From assembly GCA_021234155.1 (NCBI GenBank), contig JAJEKV010000042.1, positions 3,994,995-4,058,994 of the forward strand: a stretch of DNA of 64,000 bases. Reading direction: 5' to 3'. This DNA comes from Isoetes taiwanensis (taxonomy: Eukaryota; Streptophyta; Lycopodiopsida; Isoetales; Isoetaceae). Shown piece by piece: positions 2,929-32,168 of this stretch. A program made the position numbers and the translations under genes. The notes under the pieces are model-generated. The model did no database searches, was not told the DNA's origin, and was given only the letters and a program-made list of their open reading frames with translations. Numbering within the stretch: position 1 is the first letter of the stretch; every line of letters begins with the position of its first letter.

Positions 2929-3300
2929 ATGCCACGATACATGACATGTACGGTCCAAAGGCATAAATATTTATCAGCACAAGCAGCCTTTGAAACCTTC
3001 TTCCATTATCAGGTAATAAATAAGACAGGAGAACCATCAGCCCGACCTCTTGATCTAGCACCATTGAATATGAGGGCAGCTAGACCACATTTAGAGGAAC
3101 TCGACACCAAGGCCAACCTTCTAGAAGGCTCTTGATCTAGCACCATTGAATATGAGGGCAGCTAGACCACATTTAGAGGAACTCGACACCAAGGCCAACC
3201 TTCTAGAAGGCCCATCAGCCAAGTATTAGGAAGGGGATCATGACTATGAGGAGGAAGTCCATGAATTTGAGAATGAACCCAGATTAGCCAGGCAAATGGA
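2929..3300 (+). pseudogene. Relic of an accessory reading frame of element 1
   Basis: The translation around 3027-3070 contains GEPSARPLDLAPLNM. This resembles GEPSAQPLELEPMAM in the minus-strand reading frame at 61144-61836 of element 3. In both elements the frame lies well upstream of pol and downstream of hairpin repeats, so I infer a shared 5' accessory ORF. Here it is broken by an 82 bp tandem duplication and by stops after 3135; acidic residues continue to about 3300 in another frame. Function unknown. Confidence 0.4.
3049..3212 (+). repeat. 82 bp tandem duplication
   Basis: Positions 3049-3130 and 3131-3212 are the same 82 bp unit; I find only the last base differing. The unit length is not a multiple of three, so the duplication shifts the reading frame of the accessory-ORF relic. 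Confidence 0.9.
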
Positions 3301-3457
3301 GAAGTACAACAGGACATAGGGGACCTCCCAAGAAAGGCAATAGCAATTCAGCTGAAATCATATCTTGTACACTAATTACTATTATTGAAGGGGAAGAATA
3401 CTTTTTTGCATATCATATCTTACACCTATACCGTACTGCATTGATCAAGGTCTCCGC

Positions 3458-3655
3458 TTGGATGAACTCCTGGCTATCATCATTGATGCTTATAATGACG
3501 ACTTCGTCGACTATTTAGAGCAAGAACTTTCAAGGAAAATAGCCGAAAGAGAGACAAATACAACGCATAACATCACGAACAGACAAGCATATGATTTTAT
3601 CGAGCACCGGGTGCAACATAGAGGAATTTCAGGCAATTCAAGCAAGATTGTATAA
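3458..3655 (+). CDS. Small open frame of unknown function, probably relic
   Basis: A 65-residue open frame beginning MDELLAIIIDAYNDDFVDYL, with hydrophilic, acidic composition. It lies inside element 1 between the accessory-ORF relic and pol, so it may be a remnant of another 5' frame or of gag. No zinc knuckle, coiled coil or other domain is visible, and no relative was found elsewhere in the window. It could equally be a chance open frame. Confidence 0.2.
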   Translation: MDELLAIIIDAYNDDFVDYLEQELSRKIAERETNTTHNITNRQAYDFIEHRVQHRGISGNSSKIV

Positions 3656-4569: not shown

Positions 4570-7430
4570 TAATTAAAGAGTTCATGACCTGTTACAGGAT
4601 GAAATTTGAGAGCTAACGTCCTATAGAGGCATTGAGTGCGAAATCAATCTTGCGCCAGATGCAAAATCAACTAGCAAAGCTCCCTATAGGATGAGCACCC
4701 TAGAGCTAGCCGAGCTCAAGAAGCAACTGCAAGAATTATTAGAGCTTGGGTTCATTAGGTCGAGTGTATCATGCTTCGGGGCAGCCATCCTCTTTGTGAA
4801 GAAGAAAAACAGAAGTCTAAGGATGTGCATTCATTTTTGTCTGCTCGACAAGCAAACGATAAAGAACAAATACATATTGCCAAGAGCCGATGATTTAATG
4901 GACTAGCTCCAAGGAGCAAAATTCTTTTCCCAATAATGATCTAAGGTCTGGCTACCATCAAATAAGAATCAAGGAGGAGGATATTCATAAGTCAACTTTT
5001 AGAATGTGGTATGGGCACTATAAGTTCACAGTCATGCCCTTTGTTCTATCAAATGCCACAGCAAGATTTATGCGCTTAATGAATGGGATGTTCAGAGACT
5101 TTTGGACGAGTTTGTCATTATATTTTTCGATGACATTCTAATCTAGAGCAAGTCCATGGAAGAACATGTGGGACATATAAGGAGAGTTTTAAAAAAAGCT
5201 AAGACATCATCGCTTATACGCTAAACTCTCAAAGTGTCACTTTGCAGCAAGTAGAGTGGAATACTTGGGGCATGTGTTCACACCGGAGAAAATCTCCACT
5301 GATCCAATACAAATTGAAGCAATAGTGGATTGGCCAGCAAAGAAGAACATCTCCGAGGTGAGAAGTTTTCTTGAATTAGCAGGCTACTACCAGAAATTTG
5401 TAAAAGATTTTGCTAAGTCGGCATCCCCTTTGTTGGACCTTACTCAGAATAAAAAATTAAAGGATTTGGTAGCACATTGGCTAGAGAATATTCAAGCCTC
5501 GTTCAAAAAGCTCAAAGAAGCCTTGACAACAGCACCAGTGCTCACCCTAACAGATCCAAATAAGGATAAATTAATAGAAACTGATGCAGGTAAACTAGCA
5601 ACCAGTGGAGTCCTTATGAAAGAAGGAAGAGTAGTAGCCTATGAATGACACCGAACAACGTTATCCACCGTGCATGATCAAGAACTTCTAGTTGTCGTAA
5701 GAGCTCTTCGTATTTGGGGGCACTATTTGTTTGGTAGAAAATTTCAGCTAGATACTGATCACCAAAGCCTCCAATACATTTTCATGCAACCACTCCGCAA
5801 TTTGAGGCAAAGACGCAGGATGGAATTCCTCGAAGAATATGACTTCGAGATAGTCTATAAGTCAGATAAATTAAATGTGGTTGCTGACACAATCTCTTGA
5901 TGACCATTGAAGACTCGAATGCATTGAAATGCCATCTCCACCTTGTCCAATGAGTTCAGCAAAATGATTGAGGAAGTTTTACCCTCAAGCAAAGAATTCA
6001 AGGAAGTATGGGCTAGTCTTTGGTCCTTGCAAGAAAGCAAAGATAGATAAAGAAAGAGAAGCCTATAAAAGATATAAAAAGGAAGGCAAACTCTTACATC
6101 ATAAAGAGAAGCTTTGCATTCCAGAGTAATCAAGAGTAATGAAATTAATTCTCCATGATACTTGATAGCCGGCTACGGGGGATTCATGAAAACTTACTTC
6201 AAGATAAGGAGTAGTTACTTTTGGCCTGGCATGAAGAAAGACACCGCCAACTAGCAAACAAAAAAGCGAGCAACTCAAATCCCAGAACCCTAGAACCTTT
6301 AGAGGTTCCAAATGCCAAATGGGAGCTTGTAAGCATGAACTTTATAACTAGGCTCCCAAAACAAAGAAGGGGCCATGACGCTTAATGGTAGTGGTTGACA
6401 AACTATCAAAGATGGCGACGCGTTTTGCCATGTCGAACCACAGATATGGCTTTAGACACCGCCTTGCTTTTCCTAAAGGAAATATTCAGATTGCGTGGGA
6501 TGGGAAGGAAAATTATCTCCAATAGAGACCCCGAGTTTATAAATGCCTTTTAGAAGGACTTCTTCAACACGATTCAGACAAAGTTATCCATGAGTACAGC
6601 ATATCACCTCTAAACAGATCGGCAGACTGAACGTACAAGCCAGATAACAGAAGACATGTTGAGAACTATGTGTGGAATAAGTCAAAGTGGGGAGACTATA
6701 TTTACTTGGTAGAGTTTGCATATAATAGTACCAAGCAAGAACCCTCGCAAATGTCCCCCTTTATGATAAATTATGGTTATCAATGCTTAACACCAGACAA
6801 TTGGCATAACCGAGTGTCCAAGATAGAAGTTTCTCAATAAAGGTTGACTGATATGCAACAATTAGTGGGAGAAGTTCAAGGCCATCTCATGGCAGCAAGA
6901 AGTCGACAAAAGAGCATAGCCGATAAATACAGAACCAAAAGAGAATTCCAAGTACGGGGTAATATTTGACTCAAAATAAAAGTCAAACACGCTAAGCTCT
7001 GCATCGGCAATTTAAGAAACTTTCTTCAAGGTGGGCGGGACCATTCAAAATCATTCAAAGAATAGGTAACCAATCCTATAAGTTGGATCTCCGCACACTT
7101 GAAAATTCATAAAGTCTTCCACATAAGCTTGCTGAAAAAGCATAGTCCCAACCCAGAGGAGATATTGGAGACACCAACTTTGTTGGAAATGACCAAAGAA
7201 CAACTTGAGATTGTTTCAAAAGCTCTTCTCGATAAAGCATATAAGAAAATAAGAAGACCTCAATCCTCCAATATCTAGTCAAGTGGACAGACTTGCAAGT
7301 GGAAGACACGACATGGGTACTTAAATCTGATCTCGAAAAATAGTACCCACAGTTTATGGAGCAATGCAAAGGCCAGCTCGTCAGCGACATCGTCAACAAT
7401 GATTCGAGAAGGTGAGTGCATTCACTCAAT
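4570..7430 (+). pseudogene. Decayed chromovirus pol (RT, RNase H, integrase, chromodomain)
   Basis: Reverse transcriptase starts near 4620 and runs through [19 protein letters not shown] (4677-4740), a catalytic FFDD box near 5135 followed at once by a TAG stop, and SEVRSFLELAGYYQKF near 5350. RNase H follows, with TDAGK at about 5580 and DTDHQSL near 5755. Integrase remnants include HDT near 6150, QTERT-like sequence near 6620 and the EFAYNS-type motif near 6715. A chromodomain relic is seen near 7130-7330 (FHISLLKKHS, then VKWTDLQVEDTTWV). Multiple stops and frameshifts throughout mean it cannot encode a working polyprotein. It is the same family as the pol at 24000-27092 but much older. 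Confidence 0.9.
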
Positions 7431-8090: not shown

Positions 8091-9649
8091 TGTGACGTTC
8101 CCCTGGAATATACGATATAAATACGTATATCCCACGGCCACATCACCATACAAATCTACATAAGTAGACTTGTATACACCTAATGTGGGGGAGATGACTA
8201 AGTTATCTACATAACTTAGCCAACCTAAGGTAAGAAGCCATTTCCACATGGCCTCACCTTATAGGCGAACCGCCACATAGACGCACCTATGGGAGCCAAG
8301 TGGCATTCATGTAAACCCTAACATATAAAAGGCTAAACCCTAAACCCTAGCCACATTTGGCTCCACCAACCTCAGACCACCAGTTCGCGATCAGAGCTCC
8401 GACTCGAAGACCGTCTTCGACAGCCTGGGTTACAGCAGCGATTGCCAGAGATGGAGAACCAGGGAATGAGCGGTAGCGCGTCAGGGGCAGGTATTTCGAA
8501 TAGATTTCAGTATTGCAGTAGAGCCATTCTAGAACCTATTGTTCTGAACATGAACCTAATCAATGAACCCTAATTATAGGTTAGATGTATGTGATTAGGA
8601 TTAGTTGTTATTCTCTTTTATTATCAAGATTATGTTGATATGATGTTGGTTGATCTCATATTTGCACCTCTTGTGTATTGGGAAGGGGGGTAGAGACCTA
8701 GTAGCCACTAGTAGATGATGCTCCTAGTTTAGACCCACTAGTTCCCATTATTATGCGGCCTGTGCATAGAGCCCACCTGGCTACGGAGGCTATGGAGTGA
8801 CTGAGCACCACACAACGGGGTCAGTGGCAAAGTGGAGGGAGGACCCTGCTGAGCGCGGCTACTGGGGTCCCATAGCGGGCTAGGCTCATAGTCGGTCACT
8901 TCGTGTGGGCCGGGTATGGGTCCGACACTTCCTGGGTCAATGGTGTCGCCCTGACTCTCAAGAGTTGCAAGTGTCGGCTTGGCTCTTGTTTTGGGGAGTT
9001 CAGTCGGGTATGGACGTGTGTCGCCACGATCCTCTAGCCGCCCATGGAGCCACTGCACTCCGGGAGGGGGAGATGCAACCCTTCCTACCTCATCGGACCG
9101 GGGAGATGCAACCCGGAGTAGTCTCGTTGGGTGATACCATGGGATTACGTCTCCGGCAGGTTACAGTCACGTCAGAGCCTGATTTAGCCTATCTGCAAAG
9201 TATGCACAGGAGGGGCGGATGGAGTGGTCAACCCTAGCCATTGTCTATTGCCAGCCCAAGTCATTGCCATAACTCGGTCTGTTCTATCTGGAGGCCCCAG
9301 CCGTCAGTCGACTCCCCCTTGAGTCTGAGCCCTGGGTAGGAGCCTCTATTTGATGTATTTGACGCATTCATTGTATTGTTGTATTTGATGACATGGTTAG
9401 ATGGATTATCACTACCCTTCGAGGTAGTTTATTGTTATTGTAGCTAGTGCTTATGTTGTATATTTTTGCTTCCGCTGACATAGGGACCCCATAGAGGACG
9501 GGACGGAATGACACCTCTGTGTCCTCTACTCGATCGTCTGGACCCCAGACACGAGTTAGACAGAGGGCCCATACGACGGGTGCCGTTGGATGGGGAAGGT
9601 CCTTCGATGTATACGGCGGGCTGTCGTATATAGTGCAAGGAGCGTCACA
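8091..9649 (+). repeat. 3' LTR of element 1
   Basis: A 1559 bp LTR beginning TGTGACG and ending CGTCACA, so the termini form a 7 bp inverted repeat. The left edge is fixed by the polypurine tract and the right edge by analogy with the LTRs at 11895-13480 and 27601-29382. It shares with those LTRs a block containing 'gcacaggaggggcggatgg' near 9205. Open frames inside it (for example 8905-9237 and 9519-9809) are not considered genes. Confidence 0.85.
8323..8348 (+). promoter_or_regulatory. TATA box followed by telo-box in the LTR of element 1
   Basis: atataaaagg is followed immediately by ctaaaccctaaaccctag, more than two plant telomere-type units (telo-box AAACCCTA). Plant telo-boxes are known promoter elements near transcription starts of translation-related genes. 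The minus-strand LTR at 53665-55287 has the same pairing, which supports a real promoter. The transcription start itself is inferred. Confidence 0.6.
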
Positions 9650-9775
9650 GATACCATTGGAGGTGACTGGTGCATATAAACTGTCTCTTAGGGGCATTTT
9701 ACATGCATCATCGAGAGGCAGGATGTTAGAAAAAATGGTGAGCCATTTTTCGAGGACTTATCACAAAATTTGTTT
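9650..9775 (+). repeat. Copy 1 of a ~120 bp dispersed repeat
   Basis: This segment directly follows the LTR of element 1 and shares long blocks with 11047-11168, such as 'acatgcatcatcgagaggca' and 'gagccatttttcgagga'. The two copies differ by scattered substitutions. Its family is not recognised. Confidence 0.8.
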
Positions 9776-11894: not shown

Positions 11895-13480
11895 TGTGAC
11901 GTTCCAAGTATTTATACGGTCTACGTATAACTATATTGACACGTCGCCAGTATAAATACGCCACCTTGGGGTATGATAACCTAGGGGGTTGGCCACAAGG
12001 GATTTAATTAGCTATGTTAAATTAACTATAAAGGATAATTATCTAAATACTTGCTATTAAGTCACCTAATGGTGGGAAGGCGCCATTTGGCATAACCTGA
12101 GTGACCAGCATGGGGGTTTCTAAACTGAGCCACCAAAGGCAGCGCCACCCCCATCTGTACCCCAATTTCGACCCAGCCAGCACCAAGGAGCAGCTGAGCG
12201 CTCAGAGCACAGTTGCTGAACATCTCCCAATCACCAAGACACCCTCTACCTGTCGCTGCTACCCCGGTACAGCACGATGGAAGCGCCCCTTGACAACGGG
12301 TCCAGCCGAAACTCCGATTAGTGGTAGCTTAACTTGCAAATTGTAGAATAATACTCTAGTATTCTTTTCTGGCTAGTTTTGGTTGAGATTAACCCTTCTT
12401 TGGTAATTAGGAATACTTTTCTATTATGAATGATGCTCTGTTATGGGATGGTCGATGTCTCTATGAGTTAGTTTAGTAGTTCCAGTAAACAGGGATTAAA
12501 AGGGGGGTAGAGGCCTCTGAGCTTGGGTATAGAATGCTCCTAGTACTTCCGTTAACACCCTGCTAGTTTCGGCCTGTGCAAAGAGCCCACCGGGTGATAG
12601 ACGCTATGGTCTGGCTTAGCACCAGACAAGGGACACAGTGGTGAAGTAGGGGGTGGGGTCTTGCACGAGCATAAAAGGCTCCTGAGACTCCTACAGTGGG
12701 CTAGGCCTGATAGCCGGTCACGTAGAGGGCCGGGTATGGGTCTGACACTCCCTGGGTGTAGTGGTGTGACCCGTATGGGGCTCCATGCACTTTGAGTAGA
12801 TTTAGGGTGAGTAAGTTGGGTACGGATGCGGGGGTCGCTGATGCGACACGCATTCTCTAGCTCACCCACGGAACCACTGTGATCCTGGAAGGGGACACTT
12901 CCCCGACCTGCCTCATCGGACCAGGTGTCATGATCCTGGAGTAGGCTCAAAAGAGGTGATACCTTGAGTCTGCGTCTCCGGAGGGCTATAGCGAAGCCAT
13001 AGCGTGAATCGACCCATCTGCAAAGTGTGCACAGGAGGGGCGGATGGAGTGGACAACCCTAGCCGATGTTCTATACCAGCCAACGCCATGCCAAGACTCG
13101 GTCTGCTGACCTCCTGAGACCCAGCCGTCAGTCGCTCCTCACTAGAGTCTGAGCCGGGGTAGAACCTGGGTTTTGGGTGTTTTTCTTAGTTTAGATGCAT
13201 AGTATTTGCTATTAGTATTTGGATGGATGCGCCACCCTTCGGGGTGGCTATTTGTATATGATTTATGCTGTGTGCTAACCCTTGTATTCATGCTTCCGCG
13301 ATGTAGGCGCCCATCGAAGGCGTGGGCCGAATGACCCCTCCGTGTCCTTCACCTGAGCGTCTCTACGTAGACGGCCCAGGTTAGATGGAGGGCCCTGCTC
13401 GTGGCGAGATGGTCGCCATGGGAGGGGAAAGTCCCCGTATGTATATGACCGGGGGTCGTATATATACAGGGAGCGTCACA
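11895..13480 (+). repeat. 5' LTR of element 2
   Basis: 1586 bp from TGTGACGTTCC to GAGCGTCACA, followed one base later by the primer-binding site. It differs from the 3' LTR by a few substitutions, an ~11 bp segment near 12150 that is absent from the 3' copy, and a ~196 bp rearranged insertion present only in the 3' copy. It shares with the LTR of element 1 the block near 13020-13070. Confidence 0.95.
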
Positions 13481-13481: not shown

Positions 13482-13493
13482 TGGTATCAGAGC
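13482..13493 (+). promoter_or_regulatory. Primer-binding site, initiator tRNA-Met
   Basis: tggtatcagagc lies one base after the LTR. This is the standard 12 nt complement to the 3' end of plant initiator methionine tRNA, used to prime minus-strand DNA. Confidence 0.95.
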
Positions 13494-13712
13494 CGTGATT
13501 TCGGTTGCTCGAAATCATAGCACTGGCTAAACACTAACTCGTAGTGCGGTAGTTAGGAGGAGGCTAAGTTAATGTGTTGTTAGTCCTCTTTGATGTTTGG
13601 TTCGGTGTTAGGTTAAATTATGAAATTGTAGCTTTAAAGAAGATAGGGCGACTGGAGGGCCCAAGATTGGAAGAGATGTAAATATCAGTGGGTAGCTCAA
13701 AAGACGGAGAAG

Positions 13713-14924
13713 GTGGTTCCATTGGATCGGGCGTACTCAAATTACCCTAGAACAGTCGTCTCCCGGCGAAAAATGGTCAAGGGCAGGCCCGAAAACCAAC
13801 TCGGGCGCGAGAATAACGATAGGATCCCCTATCCTATCTATCACTTCTCGGAGCCATTCCTCATCCGGCCGAACCTTCGCCAGCTCTCCTATACCATCGT
13901 CGGGCAACATGACATGGTCATGATGCTGATTAAGTTCTATCCTCCTGAACAAGAGGGGCATACCGAGGAGGAGGACATCAGGACAGAGGTCGATCGCATC
14001 AGAGGCTTGGCTAAGGAAGATGACCATCGGGAGATAGAGCGAGCGGATACGGCGGCTCGGAGAAGGGAGTACCGGTATTTAGGGGACGGACTTGCTGTCA
14101 TAGATGGCAGGGCAATTGAGGTTCCCCCGTACGAATGGCATGAAGCTTCCCAGAGCTTCATGTGGGGAGCCCCGATCCCTGATATCAGCCTGGATTACCT
14201 AACGACGATCCAAATTGATATGAGTCAGCGGCCTCAGCGGTACCATGCCGAACTTCTTCGCCGAAGCGCAGCACAACATTTCGCTCAGGTTCAAGAAGAT
14301 TTGAGGAGAGCCCGGGAGGAACGGGAGAGGCTTGAACAGGAGGAGAGGGCTCGGCAGGACCAGCTGAACCCGCAGGACGGAGGGGCATCAGGGAGTGGGC
14401 CGGGACCAATACCCACCGAACACACGACCATTAAGCACCGTAGGAAGGCCATGGCCCGAAAATCCGGCAGTCAATACAAGGAGAAATTAAAGACTGTCGG
14501 AGCTTTTGGCAAGAATACCAGCTCTAGTCGGAGACAGCAGCGGGTGGATGACTCCCGACCAGCTGTTGGGGCCAAGACGGTGCCAGCACCGAAGGGGCCG
14601 CCTACAAAACCCGCCCCACAGAGGAAGCCTCACAGGTTCCGCCCCGGCACTGTTGCCTTACGGGAGATCCGTAGATTTCAGAAGTCAACCCAACTTCTGA
14701 TACGGAAGCTTCCCTTCCAGAGGCTGGTATGGGAGATCGCGCAGGAGTTCAAAACCGATCTCCGTTTCCAAACCTTTGCTATTTTGGCGCTCCAAGAGGC
14801 TGCGGAAGCCTATTTGGTGGCACTTTTTGGTGACGCTAACCTTTGCGCGATCCACGCAAAGAGAGTCACCATTATGCCAAAGGATTTAGCCCTCGCCCGC
14901 AGGATTCGGGGGGAGCGTCCTTAG
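13713..14924 (+). CDS. Accessory ORF A: unknown N-terminal domain fused to a histone H3 fold
   Basis: A 403-residue open frame, the first after the primer site. Residues 1-180 match nothing I recognise. About 185-222 is a charged helix ([16 protein letters not shown] type, likely coiled coil), followed by a low-complexity GASGSGPGP linker. Residues 304-403 align without a gap to histone H3 positions 36-135, with [51 protein letters not shown] and ARRIRGER all visible. By hand I count 16 substitutions in 100 positions, including R72W, S87F, A90L, E105G and A135P. Loop 1 has canonical H3 length, unlike plant CENH3. The frame is intact, which contrasts with the damaged gag-pol. Known Ty3/gypsy elements do not normally encode histones; capture of a host H3 cDNA is inferred. 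Confidence 0.93.
14451..14924 (+). other. Histone H3-like module with its own possible start
   Basis: An internal ATG at 14451 in a strong context (ggccATGgcc) would give a 157-residue histone H3-like protein starting [16 protein letters not shown] is the sequence around H3 K9 and K27 that chromodomains read when the lysine is methylated. The tail (about 56 residues to the PHRFRPG segment) is longer than the canonical H3 tail and otherwise unlike it. DNA-contact residues R63, R69, R83 and R116 and the dimer-interface residues H113 and C110 are kept. In the second copy of the duplicated block the same position reads GTG, so this start is lost there. Separate translation or splicing is inferred. 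Confidence 0.6.
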
Positions 14925-15143
14925 CCTCGTGTTACCAGGGTTTTCCCAATGTAAATATTTTTTGATAAATAATTAAAAAAAAAACTCTTTTTGTTCCAAG
15001 TCGAAGCTGTATTAAGAACCTTATATTTGATTTTAAATGTCAAATTGCTGACGTCAGCATAAATAAAAGGAGTTAAAAGAACTTTTAAAGTTCATTTCAA
15101 TTGTTAGATTTGTTTCTTTTCCTCTCTCCTCCCTTCCAGCGCC
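14925..15143 (+). other. Intron-like spacer with 3' splice acceptor before ORF B
   Basis: AT-rich sequence ending in a pyrimidine tract and CAG (cctctctcctcccttccag, AG at 15138-15139), five bases before the ATG of ORF B in good context. A donor is not certain; an AGG-GT candidate lies near 14938. I infer that accessory frames are expressed from spliced RNAs. The same spacer is repeated at 19394-19612. Confidence 0.45.
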
Positions 15144-16542
15144 ATGGCAGCCACCGACTTGCTTGCATGGTACGAAGACGGAGAACACTGGGATCCGCTA
15201 GTGGCCTTCGACCAGCTGCGGCCCTTGCTATGCCAGCGCCTAGATCTCATTACCAACATGCAGCGGCATCCAGATTATGCCGGATTTCTAGACTTTTACA
15301 TGGAGGAGATGCTCCCTCTGTGTATTCCTCTTGGGGATCCTCCCCAACTGTATCTGGAGCGGGAGGTAGTCCGGGAGATGTTAGGGGGAGACACCCATGC
15401 ATATGATGTGCTGAAGGGGAAGCTCCGATGGGGCAAACACCTGCCCGTTGTGCAGCATCAGGGGCGGCAATATCTTGAGGTTGCCTTCGCCCTAGCCATC
15501 CTCATGGATCAATATGTCGAGGATGAGACCTTGCCTGTAGAGAAAGGCAAACTGTTTGAGTCTTCCGAGGAGGGGGAAGACGAACACATAGGCATGGGCG
15601 ACTTAAGCCCGTCAAGAAGCGATTAGCGGAAGAGCTGCCACCGCGCCGTGAGCAAGCTGTAGGCTTGTCAGGGCTGGATGCCCTTCCAGTTATCTATCAC
15701 CAAGGGCAAGAATATCTTCTCTTGGATGATATTATCTGGACTTATCACATGGTGGCCGGATTTAGACGCAAGCGTAAAGACCATGTGCTTTATGAGCTTG
15801 CGGAAGTATGGACGACTTCATCGACTTCACTCCTATTGAGCTTCCTCCGGAGGTGCAGCAGCTGCTCCAGTTCCGCCAAGAGACCATAGAGCCGGCTGAG
15901 ACTCTACTCCGTCTTCGGGAGCTGGTGATGCAGGAGCCGGCCTCTCAGCCCTCACCAGATGCCTTCACGGCTATGGGACCTCACGTCCCAAATATCAATA
16001 TGGTTGAGGTTCCCTCGGTTCGGGATGACGAGGGAGAGGATTTGTACCATAATCCTACTCATTTGAAGGAGGAGCAACAGGAACTTAAGGAAGAAGAAGT
16101 CCCTATGGATTTGGATAAAGAAGTGGCCACGTCCGAGACCCCACAAGGGAAGGTATTGGGAAACCACCTTACCCGCTTCTTCTTATCAGCCTTTCGGCAG
16201 GGCCAAGTTCTTTTTATAGCCCGAGATTTAGGGCCGGAGGCTGAAGCTTCATGGTGGACCCTCCGTGCTCTCTCCACATTGGCCGGGCACAAGAAGCTCC
16301 CCTATCGTACGTTTACTTATGTACTCGTGCAACGGGATCTTGCCTTGACGGCCTTGGGCCAGGATATTGCACCTTGGATGAGCATGAAACTTAACACAGC
16401 AGCCCCATTGGCTGTTGCTTATCCACCAGAGGTTGCATCCATTGCGGCTGCCACGGTAGACCCCGGGGTGACTCTGCTGCGACACCGACCGCCTCCACCA
16501 CCTCCTAGGCCTACGAATGAAGAGGGAGGACCTAGTTCCTAA
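15144..16542 (+). pseudogene. Accessory ORF B, copy 1 (acidic protein of unknown function, frameshifted)
   Basis: Starts MAATDLLAWYEDGEH at 15144 and reads to about 15600, where small changes shift the frame (stop at 15626). Homology to the second copy continues at 15665-15800 and then at 15808-16542. The protein has a repeated motif, LPVVQHQGRQYL and LPVIYHQGQEYL, two acidic stretches (SSEEGEDEH; DDEGEDLYHN...EEQQELKEEEVPMD) and a proline-rich C-terminus. I recognise no family. Its acidity and its position after a histone frame suggest a possible histone-binding role, but that is speculation. Confidence 0.7.
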
Positions 16543-16739
16543 ATAATTGTACTACGCATTTTTGTATTGTGTATGATTGTAAAACTTTGGCTTGGCAAAT
16601 TCTTTAGCCATTCTATAATATAATATACCCCTTTTCTCATCAATTGTGATTACTGTCTTGATGAATACAATTGAGAATTGTTCTTTTCCATGATGTCTTC
16701 TTCTAATTATTGGCGTTTAGAATATAATGAAATTACGGA

Positions 16740-17228
16740 ATGTTCTACATTCGTTTCCATTGTCTTGCAGAAGAGACCCTTTGGGAATATGAGGAGAGGA
16801 TTACCGACATGATCCGGAGGGAGGATCCAGGACCGCCCGAGCAGGACTATGGCCAAAGATATGGAGAATATCCAGAATGGGATGAGGGTTATGAGATGGA
16901 ACCCCCGCCACCAGGAGAACCCTATGATCCAGCCAAAGGGATGGAGATAGTTAATATCCTTAGGGACAGAGCTTTTGAGGACCTGAAGAAAACTCTATGC
17001 CGCACATGGGACTACTGGAGCATGACCAGGCACGAAGCCTTCGAGGACGCTAACGACCACCTGTGGCAACTCTTTTATGCTTTGAGGAGGCTTTTCAATC
17101 TCCTTATTATTAGCCCAACGTGGGAATACCAACCAGTCATTGTCCAGGCCTGGGCACGCTACAAGCTCGTTAGGGCTGTGCGTGAAAGTGTCCGCTATTC
17201 AATCCTCTACCCCTTTGCGAACCCCTAG
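16740..17228 (+). CDS. Accessory ORF C, copy 1 (unknown)
   Basis: A 162-residue frame, from a first ATG at 16740 to the stop at 17228. A splice-acceptor-like tgtcttgcag ends at 16770, so the real exon may begin there with EETLWEYEERITDMI. It has an acidic, proline-rich middle (PPPPGEPYDPAKG) and a tryptophan-rich helical C-terminal half (TWDYWSMTRHEAFEDANDHLW). No known domain is recognised. The copy at 21211-21699 is nearly identical and also open, so the frame has been maintained in both duplicates; the C-terminal ~15 residues differ slightly. Confidence 0.65.
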   Translation: MFYIRFHCLAEETLWEYEERITDMIRREDPGPPEQDYGQRYGEYPEWDEGYEMEPPPPGEPYDPAKGMEIVNILRDRAFEDLKKTLCRTWDYWSMTRHEAFEDANDHLWQLFYALRRLFNLLIISPTWEYQPVIVQAWARYKLVRAVRESVRYSILYPFANP

Positions 17229-17355
17229 GCCGGGTCTTTCCAACTTTCTTTTTATGTTATATACTGTATGTGAGCTCAACTTTAAGCTTCAGTTGTATCA
17301 TGTTGTCCTTGTGTAATACTCCTGTATCAACTTTTGACAGTACTAAAGTGTAAAA

Positions 17356-17676
17356 GGGCATAAGCATGTTACAGTGTACCTTAAAAAGTATTATTTAGGG
17401 ACCATAAAACTACCTAAAAAAGTACCCAATACTAGGTACTGGGTACTTATATGATGGCTCAATAACTAATAAGTATTAAATTGGGTTCATTCATTTTCAC
17501 CTCCAATAGTACTGTCTTTATCTTGGCCTTCAACATTAACATGCTTTTGACTTTTATTTTGGACTTTTGAATTAGTTTTGATAAAAAGAATAAGAAAACA
17601 GTACCCATTTCTAAAGTACCCAGTGTAGGTACTTTAGCAGGTTCCAAAAGTGGACACCTGTAGCATGCTTATGCCC
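17356..17676 (-). mobile_element. 321 bp MITE (family M1), copy inside element 2
   Basis: Terminal inverted repeats GGGCATAAGCATG...CATGCTTATGCCC bound a 321 bp AT-rich element. AAAA on both sides may be a 4 bp target duplication. A second family member of the same 321 bp length lies at 52294-52614 in the opposite orientation, with the flanks CGTA/CGTA. It inserted into element 2 before the internal duplication, because both duplicates carry it. A 62-residue minus-strand open frame inside (17459-17647) has a relative in the other copy but looks like shared non-coding sequence. Confidence 0.85.
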
Positions 17677-17775
17677 AAAACTGTAATAGAAAAGTTTTTC
17701 CTCTTATAATAATACATGTCCCTTATGTTTTCTCTCTCTACCCTTTGTCCGACATGATAAAAGTTATAAGAATTT

Positions 17776-18569
17776 ATGTGTTATAAGTATGCTTATACCT
17801 TTTTCATGCTCGATTTAGACGGTGCACGTAACGCCGCTTGGCAGACGCCTTCAAATGCCAGTAGACTCACACCCGAACAAGAACTGATGTTAATGAAAAG
17901 GCAGCTAGGTGAGTTACAAGCCTATGTGTTGCATGCCAACCCACCGCAGCAAACCCAGGAAGATGGACCGGAGTTACCTCCGCTACCACCGAGTCCACCT
18001 ACACAACAGCCATCTCCCCCTGGAGCCAGTCCTGTACCTGCACCGAGGAGGCCTCATGCTAAGCGTCACCGAAGTTCCTCTAAGGATAGTGCCACTTCCT
18101 CACACTCAACCACTTTGGGGTCTTCTGGTTCATCGGTATCAGCTGGTGACCATGCAAAGCGCCGGGATAAGGAATACCGTAAGACGGTTGATACAGCTAT
18201 AACTAGTATATGGAAGAATAGGAAATTGGCCCAGTTTGATGGGAAATCCAGAGGTGGACTGAATGCAGAGTCCTGGTTGGACGAAATGAAGGAGTTTGGG
18301 AAGTCCTATGGCATGACGGAGAAAGATACAGGAAAGGTTGCCACCACCAACCTTACAGGGGCTGCCCGCATTTGGTGGAAGGGCTATGCCAGGGCCAAGC
18401 ACCTAGACAGGAGCAGATGCAACTTCAGAAAATTTGCCAAAGCATTCAAGTCGCATTACGTGCCTCGTGCGCACAAGTGCCAGCAAATTCAGACCTTTTA
18501 TAGGTTGGAGCAGAAGGGTATGTCGGTTCAGGATTACACTGATGAATTTATGCGCCTGAGGCTGTATGT
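17776..18569 (+). pseudogene. Truncated gag, copy 1
   Basis: The same start and sequence as the full gag at 22255, reading MCYKYAYTFFMLDLDGARNA, a proline-rich region, and the gag core (WLDEMKEFGKSYGM; ARIWWKGYARAKH). Homology stops abruptly at 18569 after RLRLYV. The frame then runs through 114 bp of unrelated filler into the second copy of ORF A DNA in the wrong frame, ending at 18798. The zinc knuckle and everything downstream are missing. Confidence 0.9.
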
Positions 18570-18683
18570 GTTGGGTTGTAGCTTTCATGCAATTTGTGGA
18601 GAAAAACATCATATCTGTGTAGGATACTGCATTGCCGCTTCTCGATCTTTTCCGGGTATGAATATTATAAACTTCCATCCTTT
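18570..18683 (+). other. 114 bp filler at the duplication junction
   Basis: Sequence between the two duplicate units that has no counterpart at the other end of either unit and no relative that I found in the window. Filler of this kind is typical of end joining or template switching. Confidence 0.8.
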
Positions 18684-19410
18684 TGAGTCAGCGGCCTCAG
18701 CGGTACCATGCCGAACTTCTTCGCCGAAGCGCAGCACAACATTTCGCTCAGGTTCAAGAAGATTTGAGGAGAGCCCGAGAGGAACGGGAGAGGCTTGAAC
18801 AGGAGGAGAGGGCTCGGCAGGACCAGCTGAACCCACAGGACGGAGGGGCATCAGGGAGTGGGCCGGGACCAATACCCACCGAACACACGACCATTAAGCA
18901 CCGTAGGAAGGCCGTGGCCCGAAAATCCGGCAGTCAATACAAGGAGAAATTAAAGACTGTCGGAGCTTTTGGCAAGAATACCAGCTCTAGTCGGAGACAG
19001 CAGCGGGTGGATGACTCCCGACCAGCTGTTGGGGCCAAGACGGTGCCAGCACCGAAGGGGCCGCCTACAAAACCCGCCCCCACGTGAGGAAGCCTCACGT
19101 GGTTCCGCCCGGCCATCGTTGCCCTTACACGGAGATCCGTAGATTTCAGAAGTCAACCCAACTTCTGATACGGAAGCTTCCCTTCCAGAGGCTGGTATGG
19201 GAGATCGCGCAGGAGTTCAAAACCGATCTCCGTTTCCAAACCTTTGCTATTTTGGCGCTCCAAGAGGTCATGGAAGCCTATTTGGTGGCACTTTTGGTGA
19301 CGCTTAACCTTTGCGCCGATCCACGCAAAGAGAGTCACCATTATGCCAAAGGATTTAGCCCTCGCCCGCAGGATTCGGGGGGAGCGTCCTTAGCCTCGTG
19401 TTACCAGGGT
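18684..19410 (+). pseudogene. ORF A fragment, copy 2, with broken histone H3
   Basis: Lacks the first ~169 codons of ORF A because the duplication starts inside it. It reads open from 18683 to 19087, then shifts frame in a disturbed stretch (19080-19135) at the start of the H3 domain. The H3 core [20 protein letters not shown] to ALQE is still readable at 19138-19267. Further indels near 19290-19320 destroy the last helix. The internal ATG of copy 1 is GTG here. It cannot make a complete H3 fold. Confidence 0.9.
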
Positions 19411-19612
19411 TTTCCCAATGTAAATATTTTTTGATAAATAATTAAAAAAAAAACTCTTTTTGTTCCAAGTCGAAGCTGTATTAAGAACCTTATATTTGAT
19501 TTTAAATGTCAAATTGCTTACGTCAGCATAAATAAAAGGAGTTAAAAGAACTTTTAAAGTTCATTTCAATTGTTAGATTTGTTTCTTTTCCTCTCTCCTC
19601 CCTTCCAGCGCC

Positions 19613-21013
19613 ATGGCAGCCACCGACTTGCTTGCATGGTACGAAGACGGAGAACACTGGGATCCGCAAGTGGCCTTCGACCAGCTGCGGCCCTTGCTAT
19701 GCCAGCGCCTAGATCTCATTACCAACATGCAGCGGCATCCAGATTATGCCGGATTTCTAGACTTTTACATGGAGGAGATGCTCCTCTCTGTATTCCTCTT
19801 GGGATCCTCCCCAACCTGATCTGGAGCGGGAGGTAGTCCGGAGATGTTAGGGGAGACACCCATGCATATGATGTCTTTGAAGGGGAAGTCTCCCGTGGGG
19901 CAAACACCGCCCGTTAAAGCGGCAAGATCGGGGCGGCAATATCTTGAGGTTGCCTTCGCCCTAGCCATCCTCATGGATCAATATGTCGAGGATGAGACCT
20001 TGCCTGTAGAGAAAGGCAAACTGTTTGAGTCTTCCGAGGAGGGGGAAGACGAACACATAGGCATGGGCGACTTCGCCCGTTGGAAGCAGTTAGCGGAAGA
20101 GCTGCCACCGCGCCGTGAGCAAGCTGTAGGCTTGTCAGGGCTGGATGCCCTTCCAGTTATCTATCACCAAGGGCAAGAATATCTTCTCTTGGATGATATT
20201 ATCTGGACTTATCACATGGTGGCCGGATTTAGACGCAAGCGTAAAGACCATGTGCTTTATGAGCTTGCGGAGTATTGTATGGACGACTTCATCGACTTCA
20301 CTCCTATTGAGCTTCCTCCGGAGGTGCAGCAGCTGCTCCAGTTCCTCCAAGAGACCATAGAGCCGGCTGAGACTCTACTCCGTCTTCGGGAGCTGGTGAT
20401 GCAGGAGCCGGCCTCTCAGCCCTCACCAGATGCCTTCACGGCTATGGGACCTCACGTCCCAAATATCAATATGGTTGAGGTTCCCTCGGGTTCAGATGAC
20501 GAGGGAGAGGATTTGTACCATAATCCTACTCATTTGAAGGAGGAGCAACAGGAACTTAAGGAAGAAGAAGTCCCTATGGATTTGGATAAAGAAGTGGCCA
20601 CGTCCGAGACCCCACAAGGGAAGGTATTGGGAAACCACCTTACCCGCTTCTTCTTATCAGCCTTTCGGCAGGGCCAAGTTCTTTTTATAGCCCGAGATTT
20701 AGGGCCGGAGGCTGAAGCTTCATGGTGGACCCTCCGTGCTCTCTCCACATTGGCCGGGCACAAGAAGCTCCCCTATCGTACGTTTACTTATGTACTCGTG
20801 CGACGGGATCTTGCCTTGACGGCCTTGGGCCAGGATATTGCACCTTGGATGAGCATGAAACTTCTCACAGCAGCCCCATTGGCTGTTGCTTATCCACCAG
20901 AGGTTGCATCCATTGCGGCTGCCACGGTAGACCCCGGGGTGACTCTGCTGCGACACCGACCGCCTCCACCACCTCCTAGGCCTACGAATGAAGAGGGAGG
21001 ACCTAGTTCCTAA
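19613..21013 (+). pseudogene. Accessory ORF B, copy 2 (5' part frameshifted)
   Basis: The ATG at 19613 reads well to about 19780; small deletions between 19780 and 19930 then break the frame. From about 19930 to the stop at 21013 it is uninterrupted and includes the region damaged in copy 1. The internal LPV..HQG repeat, acidic blocks and PPPPPPRP tail are as in copy 1. The two copies are therefore damaged in different places, which argues that an intact ORF B existed before duplication. Confidence 0.75.
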
Positions 21014-21210
21014 ATAATTGTACTACGCATTTTTGTATTGTGTATGATTGTAAAACTTTGGCTTGGCAAATTCTTTAGCCATTCTATAATATAATATACC
21101 CCTTTTCTCATCAATTGTGATTACTGTCTTGATGAATACAATTGAGAATTGTTCTTTTCCATGATGTCTTCTTCTAATTATTGGCGTTTAGAATATAATG
21201 AAATTACGGA

Positions 21211-21699
21211 ATGTTCTACATTCGTTTCCATTGTCTTGCAGAAGAGACCCTTTGGGAATATGAGGAGAGGATTACCGACATGATCCAGAGAGAGGATCCA
21301 GGACCGCCCGAGCAGGACTATGGCCAAAGATATGGAGAATATCCAGAATGGGATGAGGGTTATGAGATGGAACCCCCGCCACCAGGAGAACCCTATGATC
21401 CAGCCAAAGGGATGGAGATAGTTAATATCCTTAGGGACAGAGCTTTTGAGGACCTGAAGAAAACTCTATGCCGCACATGGGACTACTGGAGCATGACCAG
21501 GCACGAAGCCTTCGAGGACGCTAACGACCACCTGTGGCAACTCTTTTATGCTTTGAGGAGGCTTTTCAATCTCCTTATTATTAGCCCAACGTGGGAATAC
21601 CAACCAGTCATTGTCCAGGCCTGGGCACGCTACAAGCTTCGTAAAGGGCTGCATGAAAGTGTCCGCTATTCAATCCTCTACCCCTTTGCGAACCCCTAG
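21211..21699 (+). CDS. Accessory ORF C, copy 2 (unknown)
   Basis: Same 162-residue frame as 16740-17228, with the same acceptor-like tgtcttgcag just inside (ending near 21241). It differs by a few residues, such as IQRED for IRRED and RKGLHES for VRAVRES near the C-terminus. It lies 555 bp before gag. No domain recognised. Confidence 0.65.
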   Translation: MFYIRFHCLAEETLWEYEERITDMIQREDPGPPEQDYGQRYGEYPEWDEGYEMEPPPPGEPYDPAKGMEIVNILRDRAFEDLKKTLCRTWDYWSMTRHEAFEDANDHLWQLFYALRRLFNLLIISPTWEYQPVIVQAWARYKLRKGLHESVRYSILYPFANP

Positions 21700-21829
21700 G
21701 CCGGGTCTTTCCAACTTTCTTTTTATGTTATATACTGTATGTGAGCTCAACTTTAAGCTTCAGTTGTATCATGTTGTCCTTGTGTAATACTCCTCAGTAT
21801 CAACTTTTGACAAGTACTAAAGTGTAAAA

Positions 21830-22155
21830 GGGCATAAGCATGTTACAAGATTGTACCTTAAAAAGTATTATTTAGGGACCATAAAACTACCTAAAAAGTA
21901 CCCAATACTAGGTAATCGGGTACTTATATGATGGCTCAATAACTAATAAGTATTAAATTGGGTTCATTCATTTTCACCTCCAATAGTCTTGTCTTTATCT
22001 TGGCCTTCAACATTAACATGCTTTTTGACTTTTATTTTGGACTTTTGAATTAGTTTTGATAAAAAGAATAAGAAAACAAGACCCATTTCTAAAGTACCCG
22101 GTGTAGGTACTTTAGCGGTTCCAAAAAAGTGGACACACAGAGCATGCTTATGCCC
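21830..22155 (-). mobile_element. MITE (family M1), duplicated copy
   Basis: Counterpart of 17356-17676 produced by the internal duplication. It is 326 bp because of several short indels. The terminal GGGCATAAGCATG and GCATGCTTATGCCC are kept. Confidence 0.85.
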
Positions 22156-22254
22156 AAAACTGTAATAGAAAAGTTTTTCCTCTTATAATAATACATGTCC
22201 CTTATGTTTTCTCTCTCTACCCTTTGTCCGACATGATAAAAGTTATAAGAATTT

Positions 22255-23580
22255 ATGTGTTATAAGTATGCTTATACCTTTTTCATGCTCGATTTAGACG
22301 GTGCACGTAACGCCGCTTGGCAGACGCCTTCAAATGCCAGTAGACTCACACCCGAACAAGAACTGATGTTAATGAAAAGGCAGCTAGGTGAGTTACAAGC
22401 CTATGTGTTGCATGCCAACCCACCGCAGCAAACCCAGGAAGATGGACCGGAGTTACCTCCGCTACCACCGAGTCCACCTACACAACAGCCATCTCCCCCT
22501 GGAGCCAGTCCTGTACCTGCACCGAGGAGGCCTCATGCTAAGCGTCACCGAAGTTCCTCTAAGGATAGTGCCACTTCCTCACACTCAACCACTTTGGGGT
22601 CTTCTGGTTCATCGGTATCAGCTGGTGACCATGCAAAGCGCCGGGATAAGGAATACCGTAAGGCGGTTGATACAGCTATAACTAGTATATGGAAGAATAG
22701 GAAATTGGCCCAGTTTGATGGGAAATCCAGAGGTGGACTGAATGCAGAGTCCTGGTTGGACGAAATGAAGGAGTTTGGGAAGTCCTATGGCATGACGGAG
22801 AAAGATACAGGAAAGGTTGCCACCACCAACCTTACAGGGGCTGCCCGCATTTGGTGGAAGGACTATGCCAGGGCCAAGCACCTAGACAGGAGCAGATGCA
22901 ACTTCAGAAAATTTGCCAAAGCATTCAAGTCGCATTACGTGCCTCGTGCGCACAAGTGCCAGCAAATTCAGACCTTTTATAGGTTGGAGCAGAAGGGTAT
23001 GTCGGTTCAGGATTACACTGATGAATTTATGCGCCTGAGGCTGTATGTACCAGGGATGAATGAAAAGAGGGCCGTAGAGGGCTATATTGAAGGGTTGGCC
23101 CCATCAATCAAACGAATGGTTAAGGCTATAGACCCGAAATCAGTTGCGGAGGCTGAGGCTAAGGCATTGAGCCTCGAGGAGGACACATCAAGGAACCAGT
23201 ATCCGCGTCCTGCTCCCTACTCGCAGCCCCGGCCATCCACACCGTACAAACCCCGGTCGCCAAGCCCGGGCCCCTCTCAGCAGAATTCCTATGGCCGCCA
23301 GGAAAAGAAAGTTACCTTCACCATGGCGGATAAACAGAGCAATGTCGGTAAGGAAGTACGGAACCTCTTATAGTCAATTCCTAAAGAGGCCCGAGAACAG
23401 CTCCGCCGGGATAAGGCATGCTGCAGGTGTATGCGGCCTGGGCACTTTATGCACAATTGTCCTTATGTTATGCAGACTGCCCAGCTGGCTATGGCCGACC
23501 TCGATTGGGACGATCTGGAGTCGACCTTACCTGTCGAAGACGAGGCTCCCGAGTATATTCATGGTGCGTCTCATATCCTT
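22255..23580 (+). pseudogene. gag: gag of element 2 with zinc knuckle, interrupted by TAG
   Basis: Open from 22255 to a TAG at 23371-23373; the same frame then continues. It holds a proline-rich N-terminal part (about residues 50-100), a serine-rich segment, the retrotransposon gag core (FDGKSRGGLNAESWLDEMKEF, IWWKDYARAKH, FKSHYVPRAHK, FYRLEQKGMSVQDYTDEF) and, after the stop, a CCHC knuckle CCRCMRPGHFMHNC at 23419-23460. Gag forms the virus-like particle and packages the RNA. The ATG is the first in frame; a 3' splice acceptor-like gatttag at about 17815/22294 leaves open a later start. The TAG probably arose from CAG by deamination. Confidence 0.9.
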
Positions 23581-24000
23581 GCAGCTATAGAAACCGGCAA
23601 TGCCAAAAGTCAGCCTGCTGTCATTTCCACCATAGGTCAAGTAGACAGTAAGCCTTTTGTAATTCTTATGGATATGGGAAGTACACATAATTTTGCTTCC
23701 CCTAGGATGGCCCAGGTTTTATAGCTTGAAACATTAAGATCCCGACCGAGGCCTGTTACTCTAGCCAGTGGTAAGGTCATGCATACTCATGGCCGCCGCA
23801 TCAATCTTAAGATGCAGTTGCCAGGTGCACCAGTTGCTTTGGGTGCCAAATTGATGGATATTGGCAAATATGACCTCATTGTTGGTATGGAGTTCTTGGC
23901 ATCTGCAAAAGCCAACATAGACTGCGAGAAGAGAGAAGTTACCTTCAACGCCGCTAATGGAGCCCGCGTGACTATCAAAGGTGAACCATTCAACTCTATC
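23581..24000 (+). pseudogene. Aspartic protease region of element 2 with altered active site
   Basis: In the gag frame, KPFVILMDMGSTHNFAS (23650-23700) is the retropepsin active-site segment. The usual Asp-Ser/Thr-Gly is Asp-Met-Gly here (codons 23671-23679), which should impair catalysis. A second TAG interrupts at 23722-23724 soon after, then the frame continues with VTLASGK and the flap-region DLIVGMEFL. The enzyme would normally cut the Gag-Pol polyprotein. Confidence 0.85.
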
Positions 24001-26702
24001 ATGCAGTCTATGTCCATCAGACAGTTAGCTAAAGCTATACGCAAGGAAAAGCTCCTTTGCGTCATTATGCTTGCTTCCATAGAGTCAGATGCTAAACAGA
24101 AGCAAGTAATCGATACCTTGCCAGAGGGGATTGCTCATCTTCTCCGGGAATTTGGTGACCTTTTCCCATATGAGATTCAGAAGCTTCCTCCTTTTAGAGG
24201 GGTGGAATGTGAAATAGCTTTAGAGCCAGGTACCAAGCCTACCAGCAAGGCCCCGTACCGCATGAGTCCTCCAGAATTGGTAGAACTTAAGAAGCAACTT
24301 CAGGAGCTACTAAACCTAGGTTTCATCCGACCTAGCGTTTCGCCTTTTGCGCTCCTATTCTCTTCGTTAAGAAAAAGGACGGCTCGCTGAGGATGTGTAT
24401 TGATTATCGGCAACTCAACAAGCATACCATCAAGAATCGCTATGCCTTGCCTCGAGCCGACGACCTAATGGATCAGTTGCAAGGGGCTAAGTATTTCTCA
24501 AAGATTGATCTACGCTCCGGATACCATCAGATAAGGATCAAAGAGGAGGACATCCATAAATCCGCTTTTTGCAATAGGTATGGGCATTATGAATTTACAG
24601 TTATGCCTTTTGGATTAACTAATGCCCCAGCAACGTTCATGCGACTAATGAATGATGTCTTCCGACAATACTTGGATGATTTTGTTGTTATTTTCTTCGA
24701 CGACATTCTCATCTATAGTAAGACCCTCGAGGAGCATGAGAAACATCTTAGATTGGCCCTACAAAAGCTAAGGTGTCATCAGCTCTATGCTAAGTTCTCT
24801 AAGTGCAAGTTTGCCACTCCGAAGGTCGATTATTTGGGCCATATCATTTCAGCAGAGGGAATTGCTACAGACCCCGCAAAGATAGAGGCCGTAAGAGAAT
24901 GGCCTATTCCAGGGAATGTTTCCGAAGTCCGGAGTTTCTTGGGATTAGCAGGATATTATCGAAAATTTGTAAAGGATTTTGCGAAGATTGCAGCCCCTCT
25001 TACAAATCTCACAAAGCAAGAGAAGGTGAACGATTGGATGGAGCACTGGAAGACAAAAGTTCAGGAAAGTTTCCAGCAGCTTAAGGATGCCTTAACATCA
25101 GCACCAGTTCTCACATTGCCCGATCCTGACCAGGATAAACTAGTGGCGACGGATGCCAGCAAGATTGCCACCGGGGGAGTCCTAATGCAGGAGGGGAGGG
25201 TTATTGCCTATGACTCAAAGAAAATGAATGAAACAGAGCAGCGATATCCTACCCATGATCAGGAATTGTTGGCCGTTGTCCGTGCTCTACGGATATGGAG
25301 ATACTACCTTCTTGGTAGAAGATTCCAGTTGGATACAGATCATCAAAGTCTCCGTTATCTATCCACCCAGCCAAATCTCAATCTCCGTCAAAGAAGATGG
25401 ATGGAATTCTTGGAGGAGTATGATTTCGAGATTATGTATAAGCTTGGCAAGCACAATGTGGTTGCGGATGCATTATCACGCCATCCCTTGGTAACCCGAA
25501 CCCATTGTAATGCCATTTCTACGCTCACCAGTGAGTTTGGGAAACAGATAGAGCAGACCTTGCCCACAGATCCGGAGTTTTGTGACATTTGGGATAGTTT
25601 GGCTAAGGAAGCTCGCACGGATACAGAGCGTGAGGCTTTTCGTGCATATAAGAAAGAGGGCAACTTATTATATCACAAGGATAAGTTATGTGTACCGGAG
25701 ACTTCAGGAGTACGAAAGCTCATTCTTCATGACACACACAATAGCCCTATAGCCGGACACGCAGGTTTTATGAAAACCTACTTTAAGATTCGCTCCAGCT
25801 ATTTCTGGCCTTCTATGAAAAAAGACATTGCCAGATACATTAGGCAGTGTCAGGTATGCCAGCAAACAAAAGCTGAACAGTTAAGGATCCCAGGCGAGTT
25901 ACAACCTTTAGATGTCCCCAACGCCAAATGGGAAGTGATAACCATGGATTTCATTGTGGGCCTTCCAAGAACTCTCCGGGGGTATGATGCCTTAATGGTT
26001 GTGGTCGACAAATTGTCGAAAATGGCTCATTTCTTGCCATGTCGTACCACGGATACAGCCTTTGATACTGCTCTGCTATTTGCCAAGGAGGTCTTCAGAT
26101 TACACGGAATGCCACGAGTAATTGTGTCGGATAGGGATCCCAAATTTGTAAGTGCATTCTGGAAAGATTTCTTTTCCACCATTCAAACCAAGCTTGCTAT
26201 GAGTACAACATATCATCCTCAAACAGACGGTCAGACGGAATGTACCAATCGTATTATAGAGGATATGCTAAGAAGTTATGTGTGGAGTAAGCAATCACAG
26301 TGGGCTGACTATATCTATCTGGTCGAGTTTGCCTATAACAGCATGAAACAGGAGTCTTCCAGGATGTCTCCCTTTATGATAAACTATGGCTACCAATGTC
26401 TTACTCCAGACACTTGGCATGACCCCGTTTCTAAGGTGGAGGTTTCTCAAAAACTCCTCCTGGAGATGCAAGCTCTAGTCGAAGAAGTTCGTGGCTACTT
26501 ATTAGCTGCACGCAGTCGTCAGAAGAGTGTAGCCGATAAGCACAGAACCCCACGCATTTTCCAGGTGGGCGAATCAGTTTGGCTTAAGATTAAAGTGAAG
26601 CAAGCCAAGCTTAAGATTGGCAACTGCAAAAAGTTGGCCCCCAGATGGGCTGGACCGTTCAAAATTATTGAGCGTGTAGGAGAGTAGGCATATCGCTTAG
26701 AA
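24001..26702 (+). pseudogene. pol: Reverse transcriptase, RNase H and integrase of element 2
   Basis: The gag frame reaches the start of reverse transcriptase (KAPYRMSPPELVELKKQLQ) and ends at TGA 24388-24390 because of a one-base loss near 24350; coding resumes in the other frame at about 24353-24393. From there 764 codons are open: RT with [25 protein letters not shown] and the FFDDILIYS catalytic box (about 24685-24720); RNase H with TDASK (25150), DTDHQSL and ADALSR; integrase with an HHCC zinc site ([11 protein letters not shown]...CQVC), core Asp in MDFIVG, Asp in SDRDPKF and Glu in QTECTNR. A TAG at 26685-26687 separates it from the chromodomain. All catalytic residues of these three domains are present. 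Confidence 0.95.
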
Positions 26703-27587: not shown

Positions 27588-27600
27588 AAGGAGGGGAGAA
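27588..27600 (+). promoter_or_regulatory. Polypurine tract of element 2
   Basis: aaggaggggagaa immediately precedes the 3' LTR, as expected for the plus-strand primer. Confidence 0.9.
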
Positions 27601-31011: not shown

Positions 31012-31063
31012 CCGTCTAATGGACCTGATGGTCTAAATGGACGTAATAAACTTCACTTCACTT

Positions 31064-31066
<3 letters not shown>
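29399..31066 (+). mobile_element. LINE B, 5'-truncated
   Basis: Begins inside the reverse transcriptase directly after a CT tract and ends with a short 3' region (taataaacttcacttcacttcc) that runs into the next (CT)n tract. It lies in the same orientation as LINE A to the left and LINE C to the right. Confidence 0.9.
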
Positions 31067-31116: not shown

Positions 31117-31119
<3 letters not shown>

Positions 31120-32147: not shown

Positions 32148-32168
32148 GAACTGGGGACCATCAGGGTT

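Follow-up and report, generated by a model that had tools for sequence, protein, structure and literature searches.

Within a 64,000-nucleotide stretch of the Isoetes taiwanensis genome (the window), an LTR retrotransposon carries an open reading frame, ORF A, that ends in a histone H3 domain, which raises the question of whether the histone is cargo or a gene of the element; the initial annotation had allowed for both. The domain itself was found where it had been placed. In the 403-residue frame, residues 289-399 matched the Pfam Histone family (5.7e-39) and residues 283-402 matched solved H3 (2.2e-51), with a gap-free core at residues 305-403 (14625-14921, + strand) that corresponds to H3 positions 37-135. 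Judged by sequence, this core has an H3 fold with canonical loop lengths, and it is 87% identical in protein to the H3.3 of the same plant, where a hand count had first given about 84% identity to H3. The canonical H3 tail (K4, K9, K27, and K36 in context) is absent from ORF A and is replaced by a basic tail at residues 243-304 (14439-14624, +). In joining an H3 fold to a diverged N-terminal part, ORF A resembles centromeric H3 (CENH3) and other host H3 variants. However, CENH3 is marked by a longer loop 1 and a diverged alpha-2, and we rejected this identity: the core aligns gap-free to canonical H3, has the canonical length, and its loop 1 is not longer; unlike CENH3 and host H3 variants, it is also encoded by a retrotransposon. 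For the N-terminal part of the window frame (residues 1-285), 1865 candidates among 5.8 billion proteins included none at E<=0.001. Among the 120 full-length protein matches listed, the six examined were tandem or fused H3 proteins and not relatives of ORF A. Single-sequence structure models had a mean pLDDT of 42.3 for ORF A and 35.7 for the duplicate of a downstream frame (ORF BC, see below), too poor to use.

The element that carries ORF A in the window is a defective chromovirus (Ty3/gypsy) with LTRs at 11895-13480 and 27601-29382; these and all features of the element given below lie on the + strand. It has the LTR pair, primer binding site (PBS), and polypurine tract of a chromovirus, and a Pfam search found the domain order gag-PR-RT-RH-INT, with a chromodomain at the integrase C-terminus (PF00385, 8.4e-09). 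The 5' LTR (TGTGACGTTCC...GAGCGTCACA) is identical to the 3' LTR at 98.0% over 1079 bp and 95.4% over 604 bp. It is followed by the PBS TGGTATCAGAGCC (13482-13494), which is of the TGGTATCAGAGC type, presumably the initiator Met tRNA type. Next come ORF A, ORF BC (15144-16542; a broken frame here, whereas the duplicate is partly open at 19844-21013), and ORF D (16740-17228); neither ORF BC nor ORF D matched a Pfam family above its cut-off. The gag gene (22255-23373; Retrotrans_gag 1.1e-16, Ty3_capsid 7.5e-17), a protease region (RVP_2, 23779-24390), reverse transcriptase, RNase H, and integrase (24393-26687), and the integrase C-terminus with the chromodomain (26703-27092) complete the coding part, separate frames holding the protease, pol, and chromodomain in this copy. 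The polypurine tract AAGGAGGGGAGAA (27588-27600) precedes the 3' LTR. The histone gene therefore lies inside the LTRs, between the LTR and PBS on one side and gag on the other, as the initial annotation had it.

That annotation also described the domain as duplicated with the element. A second H3 is present (about 18684-19390), and it is frameshifted; what was duplicated is a 4.47-kb internal stretch of this one copy, in tandem, whose halves (14221-18569, ending inside gag, and 18684-23048) are 97.7% identical. Several further features of the region were observed. About 115 bp of filler sits at the duplication junction (18570-18683), and the mismatches between the halves fall in short clustered patches with letters swapped, more like assembly noise than normal mutation. 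In the 3' LTR, 206 bp of LTR-derived sequence, duplicated and inverted, have been inserted; at 28664-29027 this LTR contains an inverted second copy of part of itself, possibly through template switching or assembly. A clean target-site repeat is absent around the window copy (CTCTC vs CACTC). Both halves contain a MITE-like inverted-repeat element (GGGCATAAGCATG...CATGCTTATGCCC, 17356-17676) between ORF D and gag, and a 76% relative of it lies at 52294-52614. By eye, several LINE-like reverse transcriptase frames lie beside the element (29400-37956), and a frame at 49963-50421 looks like plant phenylalanine ammonia-lyase and is probably a fragment of a disrupted gene.

Whether other LTR-bounded copies carry ORF A, a point raised at the outset, was settled by searching the assembly (1.66 Gb, 1110 contigs). 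At least 38 further loci matched ORF A DNA at 84-97% (40 of 1843 candidates scored, two being the window's own), and the N-terminal domain was found at 81-100% identity at at least 150 loci including the window's (scored of 2997 candidates), the matched part being stop-free in 137 of the 150; these copy numbers are lower bounds because only the best candidates were scored. An open frame from the N-terminal domain through the end of H3 was present in 12 of the 38 close copies, some with small in-frame deletions. A search with the Pfam Histone family, in which 150 of 8704 candidates were scored, gave 15 host-type matches and 135 others. The best 15 span the full H3 profile, and the nine that were fetched were all canonical 136-aa H3 genes, one of them with the H3.3 marks T31 and H87. 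All 31 matches fetched from the remaining 135 proved to be element-type cores, and the L026 locus is among the 104 others. A clean core was absent at 13 of 79 loci. The copies form at least three families, which begin with MANTK... (family 1), MPRFK... or MSRFK... (family 2), and ME..KQV... (family 3) and share one layout: an N-terminal domain, a charged coil-like stretch, a basic tail, and the H3 core. The window copy is rearranged, with odd mismatch patches between its duplicates, as might be expected of an assembly or annotation artefact or of a host gene that came to lie in elements by chance; given 38 DNA loci and 150 N-terminal-domain loci on many contigs, and one insertion with a target-site repeat, we regard such an explanation as hardly credible.

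The other copies also corrected the start of the protein. The GTG at 13713 had been taken as the start codon, and it is not real. At 13808|13809, 35 of the 38 other copies (all except L015, L037, and L045, which were unjudgeable) hold an extra 390-613 bp, and in many copies the real start, MANTKSAPDPSTL..., lies inside this stretch; in L009, an ATG of the extra stretch opens MANTKSAPDPSTL and reads in frame into ORF A. An intron was considered at this site and rejected. The 17 copies inspected have no GT..AG borders, and the missing stretch contains the start codon, so we interpret it as a deletion in the window copy. With the true start lost, residues 1-32 of the 403-residue frame are translated 5' leader (13713-13808), open into ORF A by chance and not the true N-terminus, and the remainder of ORF A in the window (13809-14924) consists of the N-terminal domain, coil-like stretch, basic tail, and H3 core. 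The weight first placed on the intact frame of the window copy was misplaced.

We then compared the surroundings of ORF A across copies. Two family 1 insertions, C1018 and C1095, contain the 5' LTR, ORF A, BC, D, gag, protease, pol, chromodomain, and 3' LTR in order. At C1018, the two LTRs share 95.3% identity and GTGACC forms a target-site repeat; this insertion is missing the end of protease and the initial 1445 bp of the pol frame. In C1095, only about 240 bp of the 3' LTR matched. In a third family 1 insertion, C1061, the match ends 200 bp into pol and is followed by other frames, with no 3' LTR found. For families 2 and 3, a single copy of each showed a related LTR upstream and then ORF A, BC, D, and gag in the same order. 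In the copies read of all three families, the gene occupies the same position between the LTR and leader and ORF BC-D-gag. Similarity to the window element is uneven along this order. For ORF D, amino-acid identity is 77-80% in the single copies read from families 2 and 3. In L075, the sole family 2 copy read downstream, the DNA of gag and protease is 86-90% identical, and ORF BC is 48% identical in protein; outside the H3 core, family 2 ORF A (L064) has no DNA match to the window. It seems that backbones have exchanged the A-BC cassette, or that the cassette evolves much faster.

A distinct but related chromovirus lies at 4586-7397 (+) of the window, with long pol pieces 42-58% identical in amino acids to the H3 element, and is flanked by LTR-like pieces (window 8756-9650; L077 5641-6531) that are 66% identical. 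No relative of ORF A or H3 belonging to it was found in the window or in the preceding 8 kb (L077). As far as seen, this related chromovirus has no H3 gene, and ORF A is therefore not needed by all chromoviruses here; the gene belongs, as far as seen, to part of the chromoviruses of this genome. Remains of a third chromovirus lie at 53980-56808 (-), with a chromodomain region 56% identical, and an ORF at 61144-61836 (-) shows weak similarity to positions 2986-3601, which precede the pol at 4586.

Given this distribution, we examined selection on ORF A in family 1, using the 38 copies obtained by DNA match and not picked for open frames, together with the window copy. In the core, counted over 92 of 99 codons (seven were split by alignment gaps, and multi-change codons and stops were excluded), the synonymous to non-synonymous counts were 61:3 for variants in at least three copies, 15:5 for two-copy variants, and 16:34 for private variants. 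The difference between shared and private variants has a Fisher p=1.6e-13, a value that is only a guide because inheritance from a common ancestor makes shared variants non-independent. The same comparison (shared vs private) gave 75:14 vs 40:58 in the N-terminal domain, 34:22 vs 18:34 in the coil, and 34:13 vs 19:36 in the tail. The pattern of the core was absent from the controls: shared ratios were near 6 in the wrong core frames and 0.37, 0.52, and 1.3 in pseudo-frames of the leader (32 of the 38 copies plus the window); two of these three non-coding pseudo-frames are below 1 (0.37 and 0.52), yet far above 0.016. In family 2, private and shared variants were equally rich in synonymous changes (45:6 and 74:11). 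Pairwise dN/dS of the core, a comparison among element copies that had been proposed from the start, was 0.056 over all 39 family 1 copies. In picked open copies (16, 19, and 6; mean dS 0.50-0.58), it was 0.031, 0.041, and 0.020 within families 1, 2, and 3, respectively, the ratios for families 2 and 3 leaning towards intact copies because histone score and an open frame decided which of their copies were used; host H3 genes among themselves gave 0.025. Between families, and between the elements and host H3, synonymous sites were saturated. These data show strong purifying selection on the H3 core, whose dN/dS within families is comparable to that among host H3 genes.

New copies decay while the copying lineages keep the core almost unchanged, which indicates that the protein is used. 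LTR elements do pick up host genes, as the main text of a review of plant LTR elements describes (PMC7264820), and a piece of host H3 could in principle have been gained by read-through and merely copied along. Such a passive capture is very improbable here in view of the 61:3 ratio among shared variants and of three families that have kept nearly the same core at saturated synonymous sites. The initial annotation had named near-identity to one host H3 gene as the sign of a single passive capture; the element cores read are 82-90% identical in protein to host H3.3 (68% in the frameshifted L034), with saturated synonymous sites and nine of the 15 host-type matches read. The three families and the 61:3 ratio together indicate that ORF A is an old, selected gene of the element and not passive cargo, so that of the two readings first offered the element gene stood and the cargo fell.

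Between families, identity in three representative pairs is 84-89% in the core, 31-35% in the N-terminal domain, 23-28% in the middle, and 34-36% in the tail. The DNA-contact arginines and the H3-H3' contact stretch, as we take these residues to be, are retained in almost every core, family 3 having R42K; the arginines had already been recognized as conserved in the window. Such conservation bears on the possibility that ORF A is a packaging histone, which together with H4 would condense element RNA or cDNA in the virus-like particle, outside host chromatin. The position of ORF A upstream of gag in the same element and its basic tail would suit this role, and histones of some giant viruses are described as virion proteins (PMC9145170). 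However, a core that is 84-89% identical between families, with its DNA-contact and H3-H3' stretches kept, probably exceeds what condensation would require, and the doublet viral histones covered by the same source are far more diverged (22-48%). We therefore consider packaging unlikely.

Other core positions are changed: 86, 89, 102, 105, and 107 are altered in all three families, and 87 in two. T107A is present in 26/26, 22/22, and 6/6 cores of families 1, 2, and 3, and V89I in 25/26, 21/22, and 6/6. Residue 105 is G in family 1, S in family 2, and G in five of the six family 3 cores. Of the two substitutions first highlighted in the window, E105G is fixed in family 1 (26/26), while R72W is confined to the window copy and L009, its closest relative, and was dropped as a functional change. 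The chaperone site at 87-90 reads FAIL in families 1 and 2 and HAIL in family 3, against HAVL in host H3.3. With positions 86, 87, 89, 102, 105, and 107 altered, host chaperones may not accept the element H3. The replaced tail retains remnants of H3, namely an STGGK-like piece in family 2 and, mostly, ARK[STA] in family 1 (R in 34/39, K in 39/39), which is like H3K9/K27; an ARKS-like motif is missing from the family 2 tails read and variable in family 3. Since the motif belongs mostly to family 1 and is not kept across families, we rejected ARKS-based mimicry of H3K9/K27 as a general mechanism. The same observations cut both ways for a decoy, whereby the core would absorb H4 or H3 chaperones, or the tail would mimic H3 tails, and silencing would be weakened without stable incorporation. 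The five positions altered in every family and the ARK[STA] of family 1 would fit a decoy, but the absence or variability of this motif in the other families would not, and a decoy would have no need to keep its DNA contacts; this explanation appears slightly less likely still than packaging.

To place the origin of the gene, we built a nucleotide tree of the cores, leaving out L034, L037, and L093 (frameshifted or degraded). The nine host genes formed one group (support 0.994) separate from the element cores, and this unrooted tree is compatible with a single capture. E77 is found in all nine host H3 genes and in most element cores (28/38 in family 1), and five of six angiosperm H3 proteins have D77, the sixth having a changed site. 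The sharing of E77 by host H3 and most element cores hints that H3 may have been captured within the lineage of this host.

We compared the element with known systems. Among the titles and abstract openings listed by searches of open-licence papers were DNA viruses with histones, but no histone in a retrotransposon and no histone-bearing chromovirus. Single histones are described for bracovirus (H4) and for prasinovirus, Manila clam xenomavirus, Sylvanvirus, and others (H3); they are mostly 73-89% identical to the host in the histone fold, some with lengthened tails (PMC9145170). According to this review, the single viral H3s, two of which have TAIL at 87-90, are likely assembled into host nucleosomes, and the long-tailed bracovirus H4 enters host chromatin; the words 'retrotranspos' and 'retrovir' do not occur in its text (PMC9145170). 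ORF A is similar in being one core histone close to that of the host, kept by selection in a mobile genome, with I89 in the chaperone site. It differs in that its carrier is an LTR retrotransposon, that about 300 or more residues precede the core, and that it exists in more than 100 scored genomic copies and three old families. Among plant elements, Phalaenopsis Gypsy elements with an added 2-ODD (m6A demethylase) ORF (PMC9289625) appear to be a parallel, as a plant Ty3/gypsy lineage keeping a host-type domain in an added ORF, although both the domain and the lineage are different. The accompanying screen of 121 angiosperm genomes passed 15 domains through its filter, with no histone among those named in section 12 of that paper (PMC9289625), and 'histone' is absent from the main text of a review on the additional ORFs of plant LTR retrotransposons (PMC7264820). 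With its LTRs, PBS, gag, protease, reverse transcriptase, RNase H, integrase, and chromodomain, the element is like plant chromoviruses, but unlike the known ones it has three extra ORFs (A, BC, and D) ahead of gag. The nearest pol proteins are 43-54% identical across 91-100% of the query; many carry the prefix PITA_, which we take to denote Pinus taeda.

Taken together, these results favor, at a probability of roughly two in three, the reading that ORF A is a standard gene, long maintained by a chromovirus clade, and encodes a tail-replaced H3 variant that acts on chromatin. A tail-swapped replacement histone is suggested by the analogy with single viral histones that are assembled into host nucleosomes. 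The H3 core would pair with host H4 to form tetramers and nucleosomes, and would thereby carry the element domain that stands in place of the H3 tail onto chromatin. One option is placement on the new DNA of the element, where the normal H3 tail, the bearer of silencing marks, would be missing; another is placement on target chromatin, where the domain might tether the integration complex alongside the integrase chromodomain. We advance more tentatively, as a possibility that falls short of even odds, that this lineage makes its own chromatin, its H3 variant replacing host H3 on cDNA, integrated copies, or target sites and so evading silencing or steering integration.

Hosts rely on core histones to silence transposons. 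If the above is true, an H3 of a transposon clade's own would be a new kind of weapon in the silencing conflict: its nucleosomes would lack the K4/K9/K27 tail and bear an element-coded domain instead, and, with the integrase chromodomain, the element would both write and read its own chromatin state. The H3 has been kept while synonymous sites became saturated and the remainder of the protein fell to one third identity, which would make these families a natural experiment in which H3 residues the nucleosome can spare. Whether a mobile element can set the chromatin of its copies with its own histone is a question that can now be tested.
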